From assembly GCF_000015765.1 (NCBI RefSeq), contig NC_008942.1, forward strand, positions 1,627,921 to 1,691,920: a stretch of DNA of 64,000 nt, read 5' to 3'. Below the pieces are notes generated by a model, which saw only the letters and a program-made list of their open reading frames with translations, had not been told where the DNA came from and ran no database searches. Positions 7,230-13,010 of this stretch are shown in pieces. The translations under genes were made by a program, and so were the position numbers. Position 1 is the stretch's first letter, and each line of letters starts with the position of its first letter. Source of the DNA: Methanocorpusculum labreanum Z (GTDB lineage Archaea; Halobacteriota; Methanomicrobia; Methanomicrobiales; Methanocorpusculaceae).

Positions 7230-7388
7230 GTGATCAAGATAGCACAGATATTCTCGCTCTATGTCGGAGAAGTCGACAGAAAAACCTTCGAAGCCTTCTC
7301 CAGAAAGTATCCAAGACCGCACACATCGAAAATGATCCTCGGTCTCATGAGAAAACACCTAAACGACCACGGAGAACCTGATGCCTGA
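7230..7388 (+). CDS. Small hypothetical protein, first gene of virus-like cluster
   Basis: A GTG-started frame encodes 52 residues (IKIAQIFSLYVGEVDRKTFE and onward, ending HLNDHGEPDA). The motif spacing KTFEAFSRKYPRPHTSKMIL resembles the N-terminal part of the next protein (YQYKEQFGKDASPMIVGFM), suggesting related small proteins. Its stop lies 8 bases inside the next gene. The frame is open back to 7197, so the true start is uncertain. Confidence 0.5.
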   Translation: MIKIAQIFSLYVGEVDRKTFEAFSRKYPRPHTSKMILGLMRKHLNDHGEPDA

Positions 7389-7746
7389 CTACAAAGTCTA
7401 CATCCCCGAAGCAAAAGCCGGCCTTCTCTACCAGTACAAAGAACAGTTCGGCAAAGACGCCTCGCCCATGATCGTCGGATTCATGGAACAAAGCGTTATC
7501 CAAACGCCGAAGATCCGTGAAAACCCCGAGGAAACGACCCGCTTCATTTACGAAATCTACTTCGGCGACATCGAAAACGAACGCGAATTCTCCGACCTCC
7601 TTGGAGGCAGGGAAAACATGAAAGCAGCACTCCTCAATCGGACGGCTGAACTCTGCAGAAAATACCCGGCTCTCTACCCGGAAGTCATCGCCCAGCTGAA
7701 CAAAGACCATCCAAACCTTGCAAAAATCACAGGAATTACACAATGA
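7381..7746 (+). CDS. Hypothetical protein of virus-like cluster
   Basis: The product is 121 residues, soluble and without a recognised domain. The N-terminus (YKVYIPEAKAGLLYQYKEQF) has a strand-helix pattern that could be RHH-like. It overlaps both neighbours by a few bases, so it is part of one tightly packed transcription unit running to 9617. Confidence 0.6.
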   Translation: MPDYKVYIPEAKAGLLYQYKEQFGKDASPMIVGFMEQSVIQTPKIRENPEETTRFIYEIYFGDIENEREFSDLLGGRENMKAALLNRTAELCRKYPALYPEVIAQLNKDHPNLAKITGITQ

Positions 7747-8123
7747 GACAGAACAGAAAGAAACAAACCACAAGTAGCGAAACCATTCGCGAAAAACATG
7801 CCTGCCCGATGACCGTCGCGAAACAGAATCAGGGAACAGGCAACAACAGATTCGACCCGAAAACACAAAAATCCACCGGGCCGGAGATCCACATCGTCAC
7901 CGGGTTCTCGTATGCCGCCACCCCGGGCCTTTATTCCCATCTCGAACATTTCGACCCGGTAGAACGCACCGTTTTCAGCGCGATCTTAAACGACGCACAC
8001 TACGACATCGCCCAGACGATTCTCTCGATCCTCGCTGCAAAGGGCGTCGCCGTTTCTTCGCTGGACGGAGAATCCCTCCGGGTGACGATCCGGTTCCTCA
8101 AAAACATCCCGGAGGCACCATGA
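7743..8123 (+). CDS. Hypothetical protein of virus-like cluster
   Basis: The product is 126 residues. The first ~50 are polar, lysine- and threonine-rich and probably disordered. The rest (residues ~55-126, FSYAATPGLYSHLEHFDPVE onward) is likely folded. The ATG overlaps the previous stop and its own stop overlaps the HNH gene (ATGA). I recognise no family. Confidence 0.6.
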   Translation: MRQNRKKQTTSSETIREKHACPMTVAKQNQGTGNNRFDPKTQKSTGPEIHIVTGFSYAATPGLYSHLEHFDPVERTVFSAILNDAHYDIAQTILSILAAKGVAVSSLDGESLRVTIRFLKNIPEAP

Positions 8124-8647
8124 CCCAGGAACATAAACCCTGCCTGGGTCTCCGGCTCGCCGACCGGGTGATCCTCTCGCGGGTCCTTGCCGGGACCTGG
8201 AGAGTCGACGGGGAAAACGGCGAGATCATCTCGCGAAATACAGGAAAGCCCCTGAGCTTTTCCCGTAAGAACAACGGGTATCGTTCGATTCGGGCCAAGT
8301 ATAAGGGGTTCATGGTGGACATCACGAAACACCGGGCCGTCTACATCGGCGGGACCTGCAGAACGATGGACGATCTTCCGGTCGATCTGAACCTCCATAT
8401 TGACCACATCAACGGGAACATCGATGACTGCCGGCTCGCAAACCTCCGGCTGATTCCGTGCTGGGACAACAACCACCCGCAGTCGGGGCGAAAACTGCGG
8501 ATATTCACGGACGAGCAGGTTGGAGAGATCCGACGACGATACGCAAAGGGCGAACCCCCGCGGATCCTTGCGGTGGATTTTGGTGTGGCCAGGAGCACGA
8601 TTCACCGGATCGTTTCCCGGCGGAGCTATGCGGAGGTGGGTCTGTGA
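8120..8647 (+). CDS. HNH endonuclease with C-terminal helix-turn-helix
   Basis: The product is 175 residues. Residues ~90-115 carry the HNH core: HIDHINGNIDDCRLANL, then RLIPCWDNN. It follows a ~70-residue domain (RNTGKPLSFSRKNNGYRSI) like the substrate-binding part of phage and intron HNH enzymes. Residues ~135-170 (EIRRRYAKGEPPRILAVDFG and VARSTIHRIVSRRSY) form a resolvase-type HTH. Such proteins are common in phages and homing elements. It sits fourth in the overlapping cluster. Confidence 0.88.
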   Translation: MTQEHKPCLGLRLADRVILSRVLAGTWRVDGENGEIISRNTGKPLSFSRKNNGYRSIRAKYKGFMVDITKHRAVYIGGTCRTMDDLPVDLNLHIDHINGNIDDCRLANLRLIPCWDNNHPQSGRKLRIFTDEQVGEIRRRYAKGEPPRILAVDFGVARSTIHRIVSRRSYAEVGL

Positions 8648-8910
8648 GTGGGAGTGAACCCGGGACAGAATACCTGCGAAGGATCAAATTCTCCTGCCCG
8701 GTCTGCCTGAACTCGGTTACGGAAAAGGTCTGGGTCGAGGATACACGCGATCTGAAACAGGCGGTTCAGAACTGCCCGGTCTGCGGGTCGCCGACGATGC
8801 GGATCGATTCGCCGGACGATGATATCCAGTTCTTCGCCTATCTGGATATGCGAAGGACGATTCACGAGCGGATGGCTGAGCAGATGGAGGATACGTATGA
8901 CTATCTGTGA
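8644..8910 (+). CDS. Zinc-ribbon protein of virus-like cluster
   Basis: The product is 88 residues starting at GTG 8644, which overlaps the HNH stop (GTGA). Two CPVC knuckles (about residues 20-23 and 48-51) make a zinc ribbon, followed by an acidic helical tail rich in Asp, Arg and Met. It could bind DNA or a protein; no specific family is recognised. Confidence 0.7.
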   Translation: MSGSEPGTEYLRRIKFSCPVCLNSVTEKVWVEDTRDLKQAVQNCPVCGSPTMRIDSPDDDIQFFAYLDMRRTIHERMAEQMEDTYDYL

Positions 8911-9382
8911 TGCTGACGGGATCCGGGAGATTCTGGAGACGGCGTTTCCCTGCCCGGAGGAGGAGTATGCGGATGCGTTTTTCTGCCAGGAGATGACGAA
9001 GGTCCTGGAGGAACTCGCGGGTTTCTATGCGACCCGGTTTTCGGAGACGGTCGAGGAGATCAAAGCAGGCGGTCTCGAGTCTACGGAGTTTGTTCTCCGG
9101 GTGGAGGAGCGGCGGAGTAAGATGGTGAATGTGCCGCTGCTTCGCGAGGAGATGCCGGATCTGTTTGCGGAGCTGGCGTTTGTTTCCGCCGCGAATGCGT
9201 CGAAGCTTCTGTCGAAGAGGTTCATCTATGATGCGACGAAGAAGCTGATCAAGGATCGGATCACGAAGTATGAGGAGGTGAATGTGAAGGAGCTTGAGGC
9301 ACGGCTGCCGGAACCGGAGTATTCGCGGTATGTTTCGGATAAGCTGATCTCGGAGAAGTATGTGATCGAGGTGAAGTCGTGA
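8897..9382 (+). CDS. Hypothetical helical protein of virus-like cluster
   Basis: The product is 161 residues from ATG 8897, overlapping the zinc-ribbon gene by 14 bases. It is rich in Glu and Lys and predicted mostly helical (for example VLEELAGFYATRFSETVEEI). No domain is recognised. The overlap supports co-translation with its neighbours. Confidence 0.65.
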   Translation: MTICDADGIREILETAFPCPEEEYADAFFCQEMTKVLEELAGFYATRFSETVEEIKAGGLESTEFVLRVEERRSKMVNVPLLREEMPDLFAELAFVSAANASKLLSKRFIYDATKKLIKDRITKYEEVNVKELEARLPEPEYSRYVSDKLISEKYVIEVKS

Positions 9383-9413
9383 AGGATACTGCCGACGAGG
9401 GAGGAACGAACCG

Positions 9414-9617
9414 ATGAAGCACTGGTATGATTTTCCCGAACTGCTGGATCGAACGAAGCTGAAGGAACTGGTGGATGCAGGGCTGAGTGTCCGGGAGCTG
9501 TCGATTAGGGCGGGGTGTTCACGGCAGTGCGTGGAGACAGCTTTGAAGCGGCACGGGCTTGCGGCGAAGGGGCAGCGGGGGGTGATGCCGCGGTTTATCA
9601 ATAGGGGAGGGGAGTAG
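9414..9617 (+). CDS. Small helix-turn-helix protein
   Basis: The product is 67 residues. LSVRELSIRAGCSRQCVETA with the following LKRHGL (residues ~24-50) is a sigma/resolvase-like HTH. It is the last gene of the cluster that starts at 7230, 31 nt after the previous stop. T-rich sequence at 9627-9640 follows and may terminate transcription. Confidence 0.65.
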   Translation: MKHWYDFPELLDRTKLKELVDAGLSVRELSIRAGCSRQCVETALKRHGLAAKGQRGVMPRFINRGGE

Positions 9618-9639
9618 AATCCCTATTTTTTCTTTTTTT

Positions 9640-9707
9640 TAGCTGAGCAATCTTTGATTTGCGAGCGAAGCGAAGCGGAGAGCGAACCGCAGGTTTGCGA
9701 GCGTGCT
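9640..9707. repeat. Hairpin-array repeat fragment
   Basis: AGCTGAGCAATC, TTTGATTTGCGAGCG and GAACCGCAGGTTTGCGAG belong to the same family as the arrays at 1540-1770 and 11465-11705 (GAGCAA and TTTGCGAG frames with paired stems). It directly abuts the left end of the GxxExxY element. Confidence 0.55.
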
Positions 9708-9751
9708 TTGGTTTCGTGTAAGGCTGGGTATTGATACATGAGATAAAACCC

Positions 9752-9893
9752 ACCGCGAATCTCCGCGAATCCTCGCGAATCGCATTTTCCTTACGTTCGG
9801 ATGCTCTGCTCCGGCTGATCGCCTGCGCAGGAATCGCACCCTCACTTGAAAAATGCTATCGGAAAAACCCGCGTGCGGGTTTTTCTTTTTGGG
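9752..9893 (+). repeat. Left arm of the GxxExxY element
   Basis: It reads iterons, GCATTTTCCTTACG, GCTCTGCTCCGGCTGATCGC, GCAGGAATCGCACC, AAAAATGCTATCGG and finally the hairpin AAAAACCCGCGTGCGGGTTTTT. The hairpin sits just before the gene's TATA box (9901-9908), so the arm could insulate or terminate transcription from outside. Confidence 0.85.
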
Positions 9894-9932
9894 GTAAATC
9901 ATATATAATTTAGAATGAAGAAAAAAAGGATC

Positions 9933-10370
9933 ATGGATCTTATTGTGGAAAAACCGGAGATTCTCTATCCTGATGAAGTTCACAAAATAATCGGCTGCGC
10001 TATGACCGTCTATAATATTCTGGGACGCGGGTTTCTGGAAGCCGTATATCATGATGCTCTGGAAGTTGAACTGGAATTACAGGGAATTCCCTTTGAACAC
10101 AAGAAACATCTGAATATTTTTTATAAAGGCGTGAAACTGCCGAGTTACTATCAGGCAGATGTGGTCTGTTATGATAAGATCATCCTTGAACTGAAAACTG
10201 AGACAGAGTTGGTTAAAGAGGATGAGGCACAGCTCATCAATTATCTGAAAGCAACCGGAATCAAACTTGGAATTCTCATCAATTTTGGAAAACGGCGAAA
10301 ACTCGAGTGGCAGCGGGTCGTATATTCCGATGAACGATATCTGAATAATGCAAATATTCCAATAGAGTGA
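9933..10370 (+). CDS. GxxExxY protein (PD-(D/E)XK-like)
   Basis: The product is 145 residues. G-F-L-E-A-V-Y (about residues 33-39) is the family signature GxxExxY, after a LYPDEVHKIIGCAMTVYNIL helix. The later segment ADVVCYDKIILELKTE provides the Asp and E-x-K pattern of the PD-(D/E)XK nuclease fold to which the family is assigned. Its function is unknown in all organisms I know of. The TATA box ATATATAA at 9901-9908 places transcription start near 9930, so ATG 9933 is preferred; ATG 9915 would add six residues. Both flanks are arms of the inverted-repeat element. Confidence 0.88.
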   Translation: MDLIVEKPEILYPDEVHKIIGCAMTVYNILGRGFLEAVYHDALEVELELQGIPFEHKKHLNIFYKGVKLPSYYQADVVCYDKIILELKTETELVKEDEAQLINYLKATGIKLGILINFGKRRKLEWQRVVYSDERYLNNANIPIE

Positions 10371-10373
10371 AAG

Positions 10374-10506
10374 AAAAACCCGCACGCGGGTTTTTCCGAT
10401 AGCATTTTTCCAGACGGCGTGCGATTCCTGCGCAGGCGATCAGCCGGAGCAGAGCACGCAGGCGCAAGAAAAATGCGATTCGCGTTAATTCGCGGAGATT
10501 CGCGGT
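10374..10506 (-). repeat. Right arm of the GxxExxY element
   Basis: This is the inverted copy of 9752-9893, starting 4 bases after the gene's stop with the hairpin AAAAACCCGCACGCGGGTTTTT, which may terminate the transcript. It ends with three ATTCGCG iterons at 10478, 10488 and 10498. Confidence 0.85.
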
Positions 10507-10552
10507 TAAATGATATCATGCTTCCGCGTCTTACCATACACGAAATCGAAGT

Positions 10553-10884
10553 AAATTCCAAAAAAATACAGAGAAATCAAGACATTTCCCCCGCGTTATA
10601 TCTTCTTTTACCCCCTATAATCCTATAGCATGTGTGAAACGGCACGTGAATTCCGATCAACGATCTCCTCCAAATAGGACAGAAAAAACCACGTGCGTTT
10701 TGCATGTGTCTAATCGTTGAGAGTCGATGACTCGACTAACCCGGTCGCAGGTTCCATATTTCTTTGGACCCTGCCGGATGGTTTGACGATCATCAGATGC
10801 CTTCGGTGACCTCGACGGGTCGCAAACCTCCGGTTTGCTCCTCGCTTCGACCGCCGTGGGCGGTCTCAGCGGATCACCTCCACC
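10553..10884. repeat. Gene-free region with hairpin array
   Basis: I see no gene here. From 10715 to 10875 there are short palindromes: GAGTCGATGACTC (~10720), GCAAACCTCCGGTTTGC (~10822) and GACCGCCGTGGGCGGTC (~10848). They end with CTCAGCGGA just before the start of the next gene. The region to the left of 10715 is unremarkable AT-rich sequence. Confidence 0.55.
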
Positions 10885-11376
10885 ATGACAGCAGATTTCA
10901 TTCAGACAGCAATCTCGAAGTCCGCAAAGCGGATCTTCACCGCAGAGTTTACGAACGCCGCCGCGTATGATGCGATCGTCGCAGAAATTACCGGCGTGGA
11001 AAATCCCCTCGGCCTTGCCGAAGTCGAACTCGGGAAGGAGATCTACAAGACCTATGTCGGCTACTTCGACCCGAACACCAGCGAAATGAACGGCAAGGTT
11101 CAGGTCACGGCATATACCCGGGCCGAGTATGCCGCGGCAATCACCGCCCTCACCGGCAGTGCGGATCTCAAGACCGCATTCGGGAACGGCGGTACCGCAG
11201 AGACCACCGAGATCGGTACCGAAGCAACGTGGAACGTCCGCATTTCCGCGAAGCTTGGGACCGACACCTTCCAGATCAGCCTGAACCGCGATTCGATGAC
11301 CGTCTCCGGCTATGCCGACGACGCCACCCTTGCAGCAGTTGACGCCTGGGCAGACACCAAGCCGGCCCTGAACTAA
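10885..11376 (+). CDS. Hypothetical protein, possibly of viral origin
   Basis: The product is 163 residues, Ala/Thr-rich, without a signal peptide. It begins MTADFIQTAISKSAKR, and the second half is predicted beta-rich (WNVRISAKLGTDTFQISLNR, then TVSGYADD). I recognise no family. It lies between two hairpin arrays and is followed after 12 nt by a tiny membrane-peptide gene with a strong ribosome site. The isolation and the amino-acid style would fit a virus or plasmid remnant, but this is inference. Confidence 0.6.
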   Translation: MTADFIQTAISKSAKRIFTAEFTNAAAYDAIVAEITGVENPLGLAEVELGKEIYKTYVGYFDPNTSEMNGKVQVTAYTRAEYAAAITALTGSADLKTAFGNGGTAETTEIGTEATWNVRISAKLGTDTFQISLNRDSMTVSGYADDATLAAVDAWADTKPALN

Positions 11377-12473: not shown

Positions 12474-13010
12474 GGAGTTGCGCGGTGCTAGCGTCAATCC
12501 AATTCGGGATGGAGGGTGACCGAGTGCGGACACATGAGAAATTCCACCGCGAATAATCGCGAATAAACACGAATCGCATTTTCCTTACGCTGTCTTCTTG
12601 TCCTCGTCGCTTCACTCCTCGGCCGCGTTCCTATGCTCCGCCTTATCGGCTTCGCATGGCCGGAACGCCAGCGTGGAAAGTCCACGAGCTTTAAGCTCGT
12701 GAGACGTCTCAAGAGCCTTTGGCTCTTGGACAAATGCTGGAAAACCCGCGTCGCGGGTTTTCTACCGAGAGAATTGTGATATTTTTGTAATTACGAGGAT
12801 TTGACCCTCTTTAAAGAAAACCCGCGACGCGGGTTTTCCAGCATTTTTCGTTTCGCCGTCCCGGCCACGCGGAGCCGATAAGGCGGAGCGTAGGGACGCG
12901 ACCGAAGGTCAAGAAGGCGAAACAGGAAAAATGCGATTCGCGGAGATTCGCGATTATTCGCGGTGGGATATCTTATAGTTCCAAAGAATCCCTTACACGA
13001 ATTCAACGTA
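12474..13010 (+). mobile_element. Gene-less paired-inverted-repeat element (site 2)
   Basis: The left end GGAGTTGCGCGG (12474) is followed by iterons at 12548, 12558 and 12568 (the last degenerate, CACGAAT). Next come a chain of hairpins (CGTGGAAAGTCCACG, CGAGCTTTAAGCTCG, AAGAGCCTTTGGCTCTT at ~12672-12737), the AAAACCCGCGTCGCGGGTTTT hairpin, a ~53-bp spacer without a gene, and an inverted arm (12817-12962) with iterons at 12936, 12946 and 12956. The right end CCTTACACGAATTC lies at 12991-13004. Confidence 0.7.

Follow-up and report, generated by a model that had tools for sequence, protein, structure and literature searches.

Several described systems join a small gene to inverted or palindromic repeats. 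Repetitive extragenic palindromic (REP) sequences and REPINs are paired with a small nuclease-type gene, the REP-associated tyrosine transposase (RAYT, or TnpA-REP), which lies between palindromic repeats that also occur, in many copies, without the gene. Intervening sequences (IVSs) of 23S ribosomal RNA (rRNA) that encode an S23, four-helix-bundle protein, as in Coxiella (PMC4990558), likewise hold an open reading frame (ORF) between inverted arms and are chromosomal and multi-copy. Miniature inverted-repeat transposable elements (MITEs) of DDE insertion sequences have terminal repeats and 5–6-bp target duplications, and Cas4, lambda exonuclease and RecE share a fold and a D...ExK...QxxxY motif. 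Each of these resembles in part the element considered here: a GxxExxY gene enclosed by long inverted arms in a 64,000-nucleotide stretch of the Methanocorpusculum labreanum Z chromosome (the window; G000:C1:1627921-1691920, within a genome of a single contig of 1,804,962 bases). The repeated gene with its arms recalls REP/RAYT and the rRNA intervening sequences, its gene-less copies recall MITEs in their ends and duplications, and its protein has the predicted fold and motif of the Cas4 group.

The window element belongs to a class of small chromosomal elements that is widespread and whose palindrome arms carry inward-pointing CRCRRAW iterons spaced one helical turn apart. This architecture is well supported; the mechanism that we propose for it is not. 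GxxExxY proteins are widespread, yet essentially unstudied in the literature searched; in one literature library GxxExxY is named by two papers, each time in passing, and iterons and PF13366 appear nowhere in a relevant context.

Gene, arms and iterons

The core arms of the window element, each of 137 nt, are 89% complementary, and alignment of the extended arms scored 113, where 300 shuffles reached 19 at most (coordinates in Table 1). This alignment confirms what the first-pass annotation of the window had described, a gene between inverted arms with three iterons and a hairpin each. The full arms, of 195 and 193 bp, exceed the ~140 bp given there. Both hairpins are of the GAAAAACCCGC..GCGGGTTTTTC type. 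The repeat ends were also said to recur without the gene, and they do so, with 52–56 arm-like matches genome-wide; the gene-less copies have a conserved common 48-nt centre that is unrelated to the GxxExxY gene flanks.

The genome holds five GxxExxY genes, all enclosed by inverted arms (5/5), which belong to several sequence families. Across the genus, the gene is present in 16 of 25 genomes and in 12/12 of those at least 90% complete. Most of the single copies are directly flanked by inverted arms, and most of these single-gene arms carry inward iterons that read CGCGAAT, CACGAAA or CACGGAA according to arm family. Within the order, iteron triples occur in 9/19 genomes with a GxxExxY gene and in 3/130 others (p=2e-7, a value that overstates independence, nearly all positive genomes coming from one genus). 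These counts support the association between gene and repeats that the first-pass annotation had proposed as a check, largely through that one genus. The iterons of another genus of the order read CGCGAAG; they escape the search pattern, which demands a terminal A/T, and were found by reading the flanks by eye. One genome of the order (G128) has four CACGAAT iteron triples and no detected GxxExxY gene.

The cross-phylum sample comprised 80 loci from GTDB genomes of many phyla, chosen as best matches and not unbiased. Pairs of one-turn iterons lay near the gene at 43 of 73 testable GxxExxY loci, compared with 18 of 173 control window pairs drawn from the same loci (p=9e-15). The consensus CRCRRAW was picked after inspection of the data, and a motif-free test therefore matters: exact 7-mers repeated at 9–10 bp were found at 58/73 loci and in 41/173 controls (p=3e-16). 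In this sample the iterons pointed inward in 16 cases and outward in two. Flanking inverted repeats of at least 40 bits were seen at 18/74 GxxExxY loci and at none of 204 control positions, and the iteron was common to nearest protein relatives in 58%, compared with 14% after label permutation. Together with the five enclosed genes of the genome and the majority of single copies in the genus, these results support the gene-plus-arms unit as a real recurring entity.

As a control family, 23S_rRNA_IVP (four-helix-bundle) genes were taken from 25 of the same genomes. CRCRRAW iterons were present in only 1 of 27 such loci, so that, of the two families compared, GxxExxY alone has this signature as a specific feature. 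The 23S_rRNA_IVP loci of the same bacterial genomes (L305-L334) often have inverted short-period repeats of their own, of other sequence (10/27 at 30 bits or more). Arrays of repeated iteron palindromes adjoin GxxExxY genes at L159, L126 and L120, and one bacterial genome (G176; e.g. C327:11213-11345) has 87 iteron triples, some in long arrays with a 9-bp period.

The protein encoded between the arms matched TIGR04256 (GxxExxY) at E=1e-40 (138 bits, cut-off 35) and PF13366 at E=1e-41 (142 bits, cut-off 22). PF13366 was the sole family that it matched, and it does not qualify as a four-helix-bundle IVP protein. The catalytic residues of the Cas4/RecB/lambda-exonuclease group, D, ExK and QxxxY, are present; among 52 sequences D82, K94 and Y110 are invariant, and E92 and Q106 nearly so. 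An AlphaFold model (mean pLDDT, predicted local distance difference test, 85.7) gave Cas4 SSO0001 (4ic1) as its top Foldseek match at E=5e-5, followed by RecE and lambda exonuclease, with modest template-modelling scores of 0.36–0.53. The protein is thus predicted to be a minimal PD-(D/E)XK nuclease of the Cas4/lambda-exonuclease type. The superfamily named in the first-pass annotation agrees with both the predicted fold and the conserved residues. Two other assignments were set aside. For a Holliday-junction resolvase, the sequence search offered T7 endonuclease I with no better than E about 0.5, and the fold search led to Cas4 and exonucleases instead. For a phage or plasmid gene, matches came from 0 of 50,697 phage records and 7 of 72,556 plasmid records.

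Mobility of the copies and exchange of cassettes

Joined-flank queries were used to seek occupied and empty sites in other species, and both states were seen: a site that holds an element in one species can lack it in another. The clearest case is a gene-less copy (L019), which has a CCTGAA duplication and a clean empty site in G020. The site of a gene-bearing copy (L009) is empty in four relatives; the flank query of L014 met a shorter element and not an empty site. For the window element, occupancy was compared among the paralogous host-unit copies of its own genome. The last gene of the host unit has six genomic copies with protein identity of 90–100%. GxxExxY elements lie upstream of it in three of the six; two have an unoccupied arrangement and one a small palindromic remnant.

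The gene-less copies are MITEs that share their ends with a DDE insertion sequence. They are bounded by terminal repeats TAGGASTTACGCGGTG, and 8 of the 19 elements with both termini have exact 5–6-bp duplications (mean 2.7, against 1.1 by random pairing); duplications at further gene-less elements fit TTNNAA. In G004 the same termini bound an insertion sequence that carries a DDE domain and has a broken reading frame. This insertion sequence is represented by one broken copy and fragments in 2/25 species and was not found in the window's genome, and TAGGASTTACGCGGTG-type termini abound in species that lack these arms. Such ends stood on both sides at 0/33 gene-bearing loci of the genus; one-sided ends occurred at L010, with one mismatch, and at three loci with three mismatches. 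The window gene (L011) has no terminal-repeat match nearby, allowing up to 3 mismatches, and no target duplication at the flanks of its element. GxxExxY palindromes appear to have been captured between insertion-sequence ends and then amplified as MITEs.

These observations divide the claims of the first-pass annotation. None of the findings that it named as counting against it was made: arms absent in relatives, repeats equally abundant without the gene, or a lack of occupied and empty sites. Target duplications, which it proposed to look for alongside such sites, are present at gene-less elements, missing at the window copy and not clean at L009. An autonomous mobile element holds as far as the recurring unit and the occupied and empty sites go and is unproven for the window copy, with its lack of a target duplication. 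The unit may belong to a system that maintains repeats or recombines DNA. A role of the gene in spreading the repeats that lack it is not supported, since their TAGGASTTACGCGGTG ends and duplications are common to the DDE insertion sequence. A driving role in gene-less amplification is further weakened by the absence of these ends on both sides of gene-bearing copies.

Convergent GxxExxY pairs, 2–9 kb apart, were found in five related genomes (G006, G011, G012, G013 and G015). Restriction or other defence genes lie between the pairs at 9 of the 11 loci read (L189-L199), the cargo including DpnI, type I systems, an MmeI-type enzyme, a C5-methylase, GmrSD and Abi_alpha. The DpnI cassette, present in three species (L193, L194 and L197), is 95–100% identical per 100-bp window; for the GxxExxY genes on either side of it, identity is about 69–90%, and the jump falls at the gene's stop codon. 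The boundary of this cassette reads GGAGAG..CTCTCC-ATGA-TTTTT in several copies. Comparison of L191 with L196, which represent one orthologous site, gave an outer flank of 82% identity, unrelated cargo, and one GxxExxY gene of 98.5% identity. The cassette genomes are draft multi-contig assemblies, and the breakpoints lie inside contigs. Two copies bracketing cargo, as in a composite transposon, were seen in the related genomes only and not in the window. In G012, sequence that flanks a composite GxxExxY locus matches that beside a gene-less palindrome of the window's genome (L195 / L265), which suggests shared insertion places for the two.

A candidate mechanism and its alternatives

We propose that the substrate of the GxxExxY nuclease is the DNA of its own iteron palindromes, which it would cut or resect. 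The cut or resection would provoke recombination, and through it sequence enclosed by the repeats or adjacent to them would be copied or exchanged; the gene and its iterons, as their correlation suggests, would travel and diverge together. In the genus, gene-less palindromes would have been captured between DDE insertion-sequence ends and amplified as MITEs. In the related species, convergent gene pairs would act as sockets for swapping restriction and defence cassettes, with a putative enzymatic role for the protein. For this whole explanation, a nuclease recombining DNA at its own iteron palindromes, captured gene-less MITEs and cassette sockets, we estimate a probability of roughly 0.5. Binding, cleavage and a causal role of the GxxExxY protein are putative. 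A broader and more tentative proposal, which we lean somewhat against, is that these elements form a distinct, phylum-spanning nuclease–repeat class, not founded on a known transposase or recombinase, whose minimal Cas4/lambda-exonuclease-like enzyme recombines DNA at its own repeats and whose pairs, in some archaea, provide sockets for exchanging restriction and defence cassettes. The iteron–palindrome association offers a concrete candidate substrate and makes the function of the family directly testable; the pattern of the cassettes points to a way in which restriction systems may be swapped between archaeal species.

Several observations weigh against the proposed mechanism. About 40% of the sampled loci lack a recognised iteron pair, and simple co-inheritance would also give the covariation of protein and iteron. 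The junctions of gene-bearing L009 are not clean and have no clean target duplication. The DDE insertion sequence accounts for the gene-less copies, whose mobility needs no GxxExxY, and ordinary homologous recombination through the repeated GxxExxY genes could explain the cassette exchange. Taken further, the gene may be inert cargo and the palindromes may spread only as MITEs of the DDE insertion sequence, as the TAGGASTTACGCGGTG ends, the TTNNAA-type 5–6-bp duplications and the G004 insertion sequence with its matching ends and DDE domain would lead one to expect. However, that insertion sequence is reduced to one broken copy and fragments in two of the 25 species, none of them in the window's genome, and gene-bearing elements mostly lack its ends. 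The gene–iteron association also spans phyla, and the catalytic residues are conserved; we consider inert cargo unlikely.

Direct transposition of the palindromes by GxxExxY, as by TnpA-REP for REP/REPIN, would account for palindromes that flank the gene, for the many gene-less copies elsewhere and for the L009 site that is empty in four relatives. Against it stand a nuclease of the Cas4/exonuclease type in place of an HUH transposase, a gene-bearing insertion that, when tested, had neither clean junction nor duplication, and the DDE-type signature of the gene-less insertions, which together make it quite improbable. Homing, in which the nuclease would cut the centre of gene-less palindromes and repair would copy the gene in, fits the occurrence of one arm family with and without the gene and the precise placement of the gene at the palindrome centre. 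Yet the common 48-nt centre bears no relation to the gene flanks, and no orthologous site was found gene-less in one species and gene-bearing in another; we hold homing to be very unlikely. Pairing of the arms within the transcript, after the manner of the S23-encoding intervening sequences of 23S rRNA, is suggested by the architecture, in which an ORF occupies the loop of a long hairpin, and by the inverted short repeats at 23S_rRNA_IVP genes of the same genomes. Mismatches between arms, however, were G.U in 192 cases and A.C in 206 (p=0.51; 48 arm pairs, sense RNA), so that there is no sign of RNA-level selection on arm pairing, and the RNA-hairpin model was set aside on this symmetry. The loci read are not in rRNA genes, the predicted fold is that of a DNA nuclease, and CRCRRAW iterons are nearly confined to GxxExxY of the two families; the chance that the arms act as RNA is slight indeed. 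Recombination by the nuclease at its own iteron palindromes remains the reading that we prefer.

Features of the window and comparison with known systems

The gene-less copies in the window and the host unit of the element are listed with its parts in Table 1. The TATA-like box lies so close to the first ATG that the GxxExxY gene may have its start, without a leader, at 9933, where the next ATG stands.

Table 1. Positions within the window of the GxxExxY element, its host unit and related gene-less copies.
Feature	Position	Strand	Details
GxxExxY gene, PD-(D/E)XK nuclease family	9915-10370	+	151 amino acids; conserved E42, D82, E92, K94, Q106, Y110
Left inverted arm, extended	9694-9888, core 9752-9888	+	195 bp
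Right inverted arm, extended	10370-10562, core 10370-10506	-	193 bp; starts at GxxExxY stop codon
Three CGCGAAT iterons, left arm	9754-9780 (starts 9754, 9764, 9774)	+	spacing 10 bp; directed at gene
Three CGCGAAT iterons, inverted, right arm	10478-10504	-	directed at gene
Hairpin GAAAAACCCGCGTGCGGGTTTTTC, inner end of left arm	9862-9885		
Hairpin GAAAAACCCGCACGCGGGTTTTTC, inner end of right arm	10373-10396		
TATA-box-like TATATAAT	about 9899-9906	+	~9 nt upstream of first ATG
Host unit of small genes with HNH-like ORF	7381-11376	+	last gene 10885-11373
Gene-less palindrome (MITE), L017	40199-40691		same arms; 48-nt centre between two hairpins
Truncated gene-less arm copy, L047	18683-18925		
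Second iteron palindrome, CGCGAATAATCGCGAAT type, gene-less	12548-12962		

Each of the described systems differs from the GxxExxY element in definable ways. Compared with Cas4, lambda exonuclease and RecE, the GxxExxY protein is small, about 120–150 amino acids, with no iron–sulphur domain seen, and the loci read are not linked to CRISPR (clustered regularly interspaced short palindromic repeats) or to phage recombination operons. Unlike 23S rRNA intervening sequences, the GxxExxY arms carry no RNA-pairing signal and lie outside rRNA genes, and both the protein fold and the repeats are different. The MITEs of DDE insertion sequences match the gene-less copies only: gene-bearing copies mostly lack the terminal repeats, and the gene–iteron unit is found in many phyla, its occurrence there not tied to this insertion sequence. 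The arrangement of gene and palindromes is somewhat like the REP/RAYT pair, yet it is not one. RAYT is an HUH (Y1) transposase, whereas GxxExxY is a PD-(D/E)XK protein resembling Cas4 and exonucleases; its arms end in one-turn iterons, and the copies without the gene are MITEs whose ends are of the DDE type.
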